DNA from: an uncultured Pseudomonadota bacterium
GTDB lineage: Bacteria; Myxococcota_A; UBA796; GCA-2862545
Reading direction: 5' to 3'
NCBI GenBank assembly: GCA_903861005.1
Contig: CAIOSP010000170.1
Span: forward strand, 1 to 46,963
Length of the DNA: 46,963 nucleotides
Positions 19,090 through 22,040 of this stretch are shown here, in pieces. Both the position numbers and the translations under genes were made by a program. Under the pieces are notes generated by a model. It did no database searches, was not told the origin of the DNA, and saw only the letters and a list, made by a program, of their open reading frames with translations. Numbering within the stretch: the first letter of the stretch is position 1; every line of letters begins with the position of its first letter.

Positions 19090-20004
19090 ATGCGCAACAT
19101 CGGTCGCCTCGACGATGCCGCCCAGGCGCGGATCTTCTCGGATCTCCTCTTCTCCCGAGGGGTCGCCAACGACGTCCGCCCCGCAGACGGCGACCATGCC
19201 ATCTGGGTACACGACGACGCGCGCGTGGACGAGTCCAAGGCCCTGATGGCCGAGTACAAGGCCGAGCCGGGCGCGGAGCGCTTCCGGGCGGACGCCGCCA
19301 GCGGCAAGGCCCGCCGCGCCGAGACCCGCCGTAAGGACGACGCCTACCGGGACCGCGTAAAGGCCGCGCAGGCGTCCATGTACGGCGTGCACGGGCGAGG
19401 CTGGGTCACCATGACCATGCTCGCGCTGTCCGTGCTGGTGGCCGTGCTGTCCAAGCTGGGCTCCGAGCCGGACAAGATCCCCTTCCTGTTCTTCACGCTC
19501 GCGCCCGCCAACAAGCTGCTTCCCGAGATCCAGGCCGGTCAGCTCTGGCGTCTGGTCACGCCGATCTTCGTCCACTTTGGCGTCATCCACCTGCTCTTCA
19601 ACATGTCGATGTGGTGGTCCTGGGGTCAGCAGATCGAGGTCCGCAAGGGCCTGAAGTTCTTCCTGCCCATGGTCCTGGCCAGCGCGGTCGCGTCCAACCT
19701 GGTGCAGTGGGGCTGGACCTTGACCACCGAGCCCCACTCGGTGTCGCTGTTCGGCGGCATGTCGGGCGTGCTCTACGCGCTGTTCGGCTACGCCTTCATG
19801 AAGGGCCGGATCGACCCGCTCGACGGCATCGCCGTGCCCGACAACACCTCGATCCAACTGGTCGGCTGGCTGCTGCTGTGCATGACCGGCTTCATGGGCT
19901 CCATCGCGAACGGCGCGCACGTGGGCGGCATGATCTTCGGCGGGATCTGGGCCTTCGTCGACGTCGCGTGGTTCCGCTGGCGCAAGAAGGGGATGCGGCG
20001 GTGA
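19090..20004 (+). CDS. GlpG-like rhomboid intramembrane serine protease
   Basis: 304 aa from ATG 19090. The N-terminal ~100 residues are soluble and charged, as in the GlpG cytoplasmic domain. The rhomboid core follows: HFGVIHLLFNM with the HxxxN oxyanion pair (H167, N171), the catalytic Ser in FGGMSGVLYALFG (S225), and the catalytic His in SIANGAHVGG (H277). About six membrane segments can be counted. Rhomboids cleave membrane proteins within the bilayer; the substrate is unknown. The stop overlaps the next start as GTGA, linking it to the fluoride channel. A TGCTAGAC hexamer at 19035 is a possible extended -10 for it. Confidence 0.95.
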   Translation: MRNIGRLDDAAQARIFSDLLFSRGVANDVRPADGDHAIWVHDDARVDESKALMAEYKAEPGAERFRADAASGKARRAETRRKDDAYRDRVKAAQASMYGVHGRGWVTMTMLALSVLVAVLSKLGSEPDKIPFLFFTLAPANKLLPEIQAGQLWRLVTPIFVHFGVIHLLFNMSMWWSWGQQIEVRKGLKFFLPMVLASAVASNLVQWGWTLTTEPHSVSLFGGMSGVLYALFGYAFMKGRIDPLDGIAVPDNTSIQLVGWLLLCMTGFMGSIANGAHVGGMIFGGIWAFVDVAWFRWRKKGMRR

Positions 20005-20360
20005 GCCAGGCCCTGCTGGTGATGCTCGGCGGCGCGCTGGGCTCGGTGTCGCGCTGGGGCCTGACGCTGCTCATCCCGGCGCCGTGGGGCGTGTGGCTGA
20101 TCAACCTCATCGGGTGCGCGCTGCTCTCGTTCCTGATGCACCCTTCGGCGCCGTTGTCGTCCGACGCGCGGCTGCTGCTGGGCACGGGCGTGATGGGCGG
20201 GTTCACCACCTACAGCACCTTCAACCACAACGTGCTGACGCTGCTGGTCGCCGGTCAGCCGGGTCGCGCGGCGTGGCTGGCCGCGGCCACCTTCGGCGCC
20301 TGTCTGGCGGGTGGCGCGGCGGGCTGGTTGCTGGCCGACCGCGTATTCAGCGCGTCGTAG
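20001..20360 (+). CDS. crcB: Fluoride channel, CrcB/Fluc family
   Basis: 119 aa from GTG 20001, overlapping the rhomboid stop by 4 nt. It has four hydrophobic segments and the family signatures GGALGSVSRW near the N-terminus, GVWLINLIGCALLSF (with the conserved Asn) and GVMGGFTTYSTFN (the Phe/Thr-rich pore region). CrcB dimers export toxic F- across the inner membrane. No riboswitch can precede it because the gene overlaps the rhomboid coding sequence, so fluoride control, if any, would act on the whole transcript. Confidence 0.93.
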   Translation: MSQALLVMLGGALGSVSRWGLTLLIPAPWGVWLINLIGCALLSFLMHPSAPLSSDARLLLGTGVMGGFTTYSTFNHNVLTLLVAGQPGRAAWLAAATFGACLAGGAAGWLLADRVFSAS

Positions 20361-20444
20361 AAGCCCGGCGCGCTTGCTCCTGAAGGGCCGATCGGCCCCG
20401 GACGGAGTAGTGCCGTGCGACCCTGACGCGCCCGGAGCGATGCC

Positions 20445-22040
20445 ATCGCCGAGACCCCGCCGGACACCAAGCGACCCTCCACTGGCGCCGCCGGCCTGGT
20501 CGCCATCGGCATCCTCGCGAGCCGCCTGGTCGGGCTGGTCCGCCAGCGCGTGTTCGCGCACTACTTCGGCAACGGCGACGCCGCGGACGCTTTCAACGCG
20601 GCCATGCGCATCCCCAACCTGCTGCAGAACCTGTTCGGCGAAGGGGTCCTGTCGGCGTCGTTCATCCCGGTCTACGCGGGCCTGCTGGGCAAGGGTGACC
20701 CCAAGGAGGCCGGACGCGTCGCGGGCGTGATCGCGTCGCTGCTGACCCTGCTGACCGCGGTGATGGTGGCGCTGGGCGTGCTGGTGACGCCGTACGTCAT
20801 CGACGTCGTCGCGCCCGGCTTTGAGGGCGAGAAGCGGCAGGCGACCATCGACCTAGTCCGCATCTTCTTTCCAGGCATCGGGCTGCTGGTGCTGTCGGCG
20901 TGGTGCCTGGGCGTGCTCAACAGCCACCGGCGCTTCCTGCTGTCGTACTCAGCGCCGGTGGTGTGGTCGGGCGTGATGATCGCGGCGATGACCTGGTTCG
21001 GCGCCACGTCGTCGGGCTACGACCTGGCGGCCTGGGTGGCGTGGGGCGCGGTGCTGGGCTCGCTCGCGCAGCTGCTGGTGCAGGTCCCCACGGTGCTCGC
21101 GCTGGACACGAACCTGCGCTTTGGCGTGGAGACGCAGTCCCCTGCGGTGCGCGAAGTGTTCCGGAACTTCGGCCCGGTCGTGGTCAGCCGTGGTGTCGTG
21201 CAGGTCAGCAGCTACGTCGACGGCATCCTGGCGAGCCTGCTGCCCTCAGGCTCCGTGGCGGCGCTCGGCTACGGCCAGACCATCGCCTACCTGCCGATCA
21301 GCCTGTTCGGGATGGCCGTGTCCGCGTCCGAGCTGCCCGAGATGGCCCGCGCCACCGGGTCGGTCGAGGAGGTCGCCAGCTACCTGCGCGCGAGGCTCGA
21401 CGGCGGACTGCGCCGGATCGCGTTCCTGGTCGTGCCGTCCACCGTGGCGCTGCTGCTCCTGGGCGACGTGATCGCGGCGCTACTCTACCAGACCGGCCAG
21501 TTCACCCACGACGACGCCGTGTGGGTGTGGAGCATCCTGGCCGGGTCGGCGGTGGGCCTGCTCGCGGCCACCATGGGGCGCCTCTACTCGTCCACCTTCT
21601 ACGCCCTGCGCGACACGCGGACGCCGCTGCGCTTCGCGGTGATCCGCGTCGTGCTCACCACGGTGCTCGGGTACGGCTGCGCCTTGTGGGTCCCTGGCTG
21701 GCTGGGCCTCGGCGCGCAGTGGGGCGTCGCGGGCCTGACCGCGTCGGCAGGTGTGTCCGGCTGGGTGGAGTTCGCGCTGCTGCGCCGGTCGCTGAACGCG
21801 CGCATCGGCGTGACCGGCGTGGCCCGCGGCCTGATGGTGCGCCTGTACGCCGCGGCGCTCGCCGGCGCGGCGCTGGCGTGGTGCGTGAAGCTGGGCCTGG
21901 CGGGCCAAGGTCCGTGGGTCGTCGGCCCGTTGGCGCTCGGCGTGTACGGCGTCACCTACTTCGCCGTGACGGCAGCCTCGGGCGTGCCGGAGTCGGGCGC
22001 CATCGCGAGCGCGGTCCGCAGACGCTTGCTGCGGCGCTGA
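20445..22040 (+). CDS. murJ: Lipid II flippase MurJ (MviN), with no standard start codon in frame
   Basis: About 531 aa if counted from 20445. The body is an intact MurJ: LASRLVGLVRQRVFAHYFGN, DAADAFNAAMRIPNLLQNLF, GEGVLSASFIPVY and FPGIGLLVLSAWCLGVLNSH are family signatures, and about 14 membrane segments follow. The first ATG/GTG in frame (GTG 20550) would remove the first membrane helix (GLVAIGILASRLVGLV), which is clearly encoded upstream in the same frame. An in-frame stop lies at 20424-20426, and between it and 20550 there is no ATG, GTG or TTG. ATC at 20445 has GGAG (20434-20437) at a proper 7-nt distance. ATG 20440 is in another frame and too close to that site. Either initiation uses a non-standard codon or the sequence has a small indel. 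MurJ flips lipid II for peptidoglycan synthesis. Confidence 0.9.
   Translation: MAETPPDTKRPSTGAAGLVAIGILASRLVGLVRQRVFAHYFGNGDAADAFNAAMRIPNLLQNLFGEGVLSASFIPVYAGLLGKGDPKEAGRVAGVIASLLTLLTAVMVALGVLVTPYVIDVVAPGFEGEKRQATIDLVRIFFPGIGLLVLSAWCLGVLNSHRRFLLSYSAPVVWSGVMIAAMTWFGATSSGYDLAAWVAWGAVLGSLAQLLVQVPTVLALDTNLRFGVETQSPAVREVFRNFGPVVVSRGVVQVSSYVDGILASLLPSGSVAALGYGQTIAYLPISLFGMAVSASELPEMARATGSVEEVASYLRARLDGGLRRIAFLVVPSTVALLLLGDVIAALLYQTGQFTHDDAVWVWSILAGSAVGLLAATMGRLYSSTFYALRDTRTPLRFAVIRVVLTTVLGYGCALWVPGWLGLGAQWGVAGLTASAGVSGWVEFALLRRSLNARIGVTGVARGLMVRLYAAALAGAALAWCVKLGLAGQGPWVVGPLALGVYGVTYFAVTAASGVPESGAIASAVRRRLLRR

Follow-up and report, generated by a model that had tools for sequence, protein, structure and literature searches.

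Where does translation of murJ begin in a genome in which no ATG, GTG or TTG codon precedes the gene's first conserved helix? In the window (the whole 46,963-nt stretch of DNA that was analysed), murJ has a rhomboid gene, crcB and a pspA-like gene as its neighbours. An in-frame TGA (20424-20426) closes the upstream side of the murJ frame, which is open from 20427, and the first ATG, GTG or TTG that follows in frame is GTG 20550-20552, exactly as the earlier note had described. Taken by itself this gap is unremarkable, because a run of 41 codons without any of the three is expected ~5% of the time under this genome's coding codon frequencies. It is notable because relatives have a start exactly at the position of an ATC codon (20445-20447), and because the N-terminus encoded in the gap is needed.

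Identity of the gene and of its N-terminus

The murJ product, taken from the ATC to the stop codon as most likely translated (20445-22040, plus strand), scores 325.2 bits against TIGR01695 (cut-off 235.55) and 306.7 bits against PF03023 (cut-off 27.4), above the cut-off in both cases, and is matched by MurJ chains in the PDB with E-values down to 2.7e-53. Downstream, the frame is intact and free of stops, for a total of 537 codons. As judged from these matches, the frame is MurJ, a predicted lipid II flippase, at full length and with helix 1. The helix begins at ~20496 (region 20496-20549, LVAIGILASRLVGLVRQR) and, with the ATC as residue 1, it contains Arg27 and Arg33 (codons at 20523 and 20541), whose aligned counterparts in 7waw are positions 18 and 24. 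R18 and R24 are reported to be essential in both the E. coli and the Thermosipho MurJ (PMC9973255).

The earlier note had held that a start at GTG 20550 would delete the conserved N-terminal helix, and this is what we find: the TIGR01695 score drops by 29 bits, and helix 1 is gone together with the equivalents of R18 and R24. The loss is invisible to Pfam, since the PF03023 model omits helix 1 and its match starts at residue 43 of 537, past GTG 20550; TIGR01695 and the relatives reveal it. When compared with the MurJ lipid II flippases of TIGR01695 and PF03023, the gene thus has the same full length, helix 1 and both essential N-terminal arginines, and differs in its start codon alone.

There is a single clear MurJ in this genome; a second match, on contig C186, scores below the Pfam threshold and has a weak match to MatE as well. 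Amj was looked for in the genome and was not found. With one clear MurJ and no Amj, murJ is probably in use. Many relatives within the order carry a second, divergent MurJ-like protein (~30% identity), whereas this genome has the one clear MurJ only.

The start position of murJ

Comparison with close relatives had been suggested by the earlier note as a check, and it bears directly on the position of the start. A protein search of 58 genomes, this one included, gave a match in 51, and starts were examined in the 18 closest loci of the same order (L004-L020 and L144; 42-59% identity). All 18 have a standard start before helix 1, ATG in 17 cases and GTG in one (L020), and none has ATC there. The ATG of L004 (ATG AGT GAG ACG CCC CCC, MSETPP) and that of L011 (ATG CGC GAG ACG CCG CCC, MRETPP) align without a gap to ATC 20445, where the window reads ATC GCC GAG ACC CCG CCG (I-AETPP). 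The triplet GCC just before the start codon is common to the window, L004, L007, L011 and L016. The one same-genus genome among those searched, G001, gave no match for the murJ locus; its contig C149 matches the window from 24.4 kb on and, if collinear, stops before murJ.

A Shine-Dalgarno-like GGAG (20434-20437) lies 7 nt upstream of the ATC, a suitable spacing, as the earlier note had pointed out. Matches of at least 4 nt to the Shine-Dalgarno sequence, at a spacing of 4-11 nt, were found at 436 of 764 confident starts as compared with 3511 of 20,000 random points, so that GGAG at 7 nt supports the start by about threefold. This GGAG is not obviously inherited, since many relatives in the order have no clear Shine-Dalgarno sequence. 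In several of them (L005, L008, L010-L013, L017 and L019), inspection by eye showed a TTAG/TTAT-like element ~10-15 nt before the murJ ATG and no clear Shine-Dalgarno sequence; this element might belong to a leaderless murJ transcript as its -10 box.

A log-odds model of codon use, trained on the genome itself, places the onset of coding at 20442, one codon before the ATC, and codons 20427-20441 score negative in sum. The near-cognate ATC therefore stands, at Shine-Dalgarno spacing, where the relatives have their homologous ATG and where the coding signal sets in, and none of the standard start codons available would give the conserved N-terminus. Whether its ATC is real or a base error, 20445 is very probably the true start site.

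Other placements have to meet the same evidence. Two of the codons concerned, GTG 20415 and CTG 20496, had gone unmentioned in the earlier note. Upstream, a candidate tiny frame, GTG CGA CCC TGA (20415-20426), lies 7 nt past a second GGAG (20404-20407) and in the frame of murJ, and translation could begin at its GTG if TGA 20424 were a base error or were read through. The non-coding summed score of codons 20427-20441, the alignment of the relatives' ATG at 20445 rather than upstream, and the need to explain away an in-frame TGA two codons later make such a start extremely improbable. Downstream, a shorter MurJ could start at GTG 20550, the first standard start, or at CTG 20496, immediately ahead of helix 1, which would retain both arginines. 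The former loses the helix and the arginines, while the latter lies downstream of where all 18 relatives start, has no visible Shine-Dalgarno sequence before it and is preceded by 17 codons that already carry the coding signal, which leaves a downstream start highly unlikely.

It could also be that murJ is broken, either because its start was lost or because of an indel or frameshift involving ATG 20440-20442, so that the gene is decaying or its start is shifted. This ATG is out of frame, as had been stated, and is indeed present 5 nt upstream of the ATC. However, it lies just 2 nt past the GGAG and has no counterpart in the aligned relatives, which align without an indel; if brought into frame, it would add residues that are absent from L004 and L011. 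Given in addition the intact 537-codon frame downstream and the absence of another clear MurJ in the genome, we regard a broken murJ as very improbable. The earlier note had offered AUC initiation, a one-base error or a programmed shift as explanations; the first two remain tenable, with the relatives' ATG aligning to that very codon, and an indel or programmed shift is not supported.

Missing and non-canonical starts in the genome and beyond

The frequency of such cases was estimated from 80 further stretches of the assembly which, together with the window, make 81 stretches of 1,266,937 bases (22% of the assembly) with 885 gene calls. Eight of these calls lose a coding score of at least 8 ahead of their first standard start. 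That most of them were antisense frames was ruled out by Pfam: five are genuine genes, each with its domain lying past a standard start (L138, L147, L180, L155 and L184; a kinase, a GMP synthase, a RecQ-like helicase, an eCIS-core protein and TatD), and the other three are L181, which has no family, a transposase fragment in L143, and murJ. The fragment in L143 (2279-2776, minus strand) has its DNA-binding domain ahead of the first standard start codon and probably represents an insertion element in decay. Under a second criterion, 16 of the 885 calls were listed, most of which, by eye, run on into plausible starts or signal peptides. murJ is thus the one clear conserved gene without a start among the 885 calls, by a method that loses sensitivity wherever a GTG or TTG chances to be near, and the other calls yielded no further ATC start.

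As a control we examined infC, the classic case of a discriminated start, which was matched in 54 of 60 genomes; 29 of those loci and the window genome's own were read, and one of these 30 had no motif. Of the 29 loci in the order that could be evaluated, 28 start infC with TTG at the homologous position, the window genome's own among them. Recovering these TTG starts by homology indicates that homology can reveal non-ATG starts in these assemblies. In one genome (G037, locus L232), infC has CTG at the apparently matching codon, and the nearest standard start lies at least 46 codons ahead of the conserved motif. Myxococcus infC is an example of an AUC start; it is no help here, because infC starts with TTG in this genome and its order.

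In other groups, 80 murJ loci were examined, and ten of them were flagged as being without a start. Six loci (L047, L048, L062, L069, L094 and L096) proved to be mis-hits of the motif, an ATG being present immediately before helix 1, and two were set aside, L110 for a run of N and L055 for a contig end; L046, L049 and L104 stay without a start, 3 of 78. In L046 and L049, which come from two Acidiferrales MAG species, no ATG, GTG or TTG occurs between a well-conserved, promoter-like TTGACA...TAATGA and helix 1 of murJ. The promoter-like element precedes the VFAHYFG motif of murJ by 150-190 bases in L046, L049, L064, L044, L059 and L071, with TTGACA exact in five of the six and a TTGACA-like sequence in all, and L046, L049 and L064 share a near-cognate ATC in 'ATCGACAC', near the expected transcript start. 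The murJ of L046 and L049 may possibly have another non-canonical, even leaderless, start.

A weak ATC start or a wrong base

If 20445 is the start, the C at 20447 could be a wrong consensus base or a minority variant taken up by the assembly, the true codon being ATG (or GTG or TTG). Several observations point this way: the assembly is a draft in 223 contigs, 18 of 18 relatives have a standard start, and murJ is the sole clear case among the 885 gene calls. Moreover, C is the only base at 20447 that completes a perfect 5-bp hairpin, GCGAT-GCC-ATCGC (20437-20449), which takes in the ATC and could reflect a template-directed change or a repeat-linked artefact; sequencing artefacts have been reported in hairpin contexts. 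An equivalent gain would, however, arise at 37 of 502 ATG starts, and the hairpin therefore weighs little. It is also no more stable than shuffled sequences, and the RNA folds tested for a regulatory element were no better than those of shuffles. Searches for Rfam families returned none except a tRNA, and 20000-20600 held no match to a sigma-70-type promoter or a terminator. At typical consensus error rates, well below one start codon in a genome would be affected, as compared with several natural non-canonical starts per genome if these make up 0.1-0.3% of genes, as the Listeria figures suggest, although this comparison is rough. On balance a wrong base is a real but lesser possibility.

We favour instead a murJ that is intact and translated from 20445, its ancestral ATG now being ATC, and consider this probable on the sequence evidence. 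The ATG at 20445 would have changed to ATC, the GGAG 7 nt upstream would place the ribosome at this codon, and the ordinary initiator tRNA would start there with reduced efficiency, the reduced output sufficing for a membrane flippase. We infer, then, that the ATC is present in the living genome and is used with fMet, at a low output that is enough.

Near-cognate start codons in bacteria include ATT, ATC, ATA and CTG. Precedents come from Listeria monocytogenes, in which fixed non-canonical starts occur in 6 of 2265 conserved genes, the starts of two of the six, rnhC (ATC) and infC (ATT), were confirmed, and changing ATG to ATA or ATT at rsbW lowered expression without abolishing it (PMC13068326). 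The two Listeria genes resemble murJ in that a conserved gene has a start one base off ATG with no standard start nearby; in our case, the gene encodes an essential membrane flippase and is known from the sequence of a single draft genome. IF3 is described as disfavouring weak third-base pairs (PMC10158994), implying that output from ATC would be low. Among the papers listed by literature searches, none showed a murJ with a non-canonical start. Hecht 2017 is reportedly a systematic study of 64 codons.

The ATC start is supported by the gap-free alignment to the relatives' ATG, by the coding signal from 20442 and by the spacing of the GGAG. It is further favoured by the single clear MurJ and the lack of an Amj match, because the gene should then be functional, and by the loss of the R18 and R24 equivalents at GTG 20550; the confirmed ATC start of Listeria rnhC also counts for it. 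Against it count the absence of ATC from the relatives' murJ, from infC and from the rest of the 885 calls, as well as the inefficiency of AUC initiation and the bias of IF3 against weak third-base pairs.

A stronger form of the proposal, in which AUC is a fixed and regulated weak start that ties the supply of MurJ to IF3 or initiation stringency with the help of the hairpin, appears very improbable to us. Equally improbable is the corollary, drawn by analogy with infC, that start-codon fidelity would set flippase output. The oddity at murJ is real and lies at a definite codon, and it is ordinary in kind. ATC starts are a known rarity.

If the C at 20447 is an error, the locus illustrates how a single base suffices to give an essential gene in a draft assembly an odd-looking start. 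If the ATC is true, standard gene callers would truncate MurJ here, dropping two essential N-terminal arginines, and an essential membrane transporter would be added to the few bacterial genes known to start with ATC.
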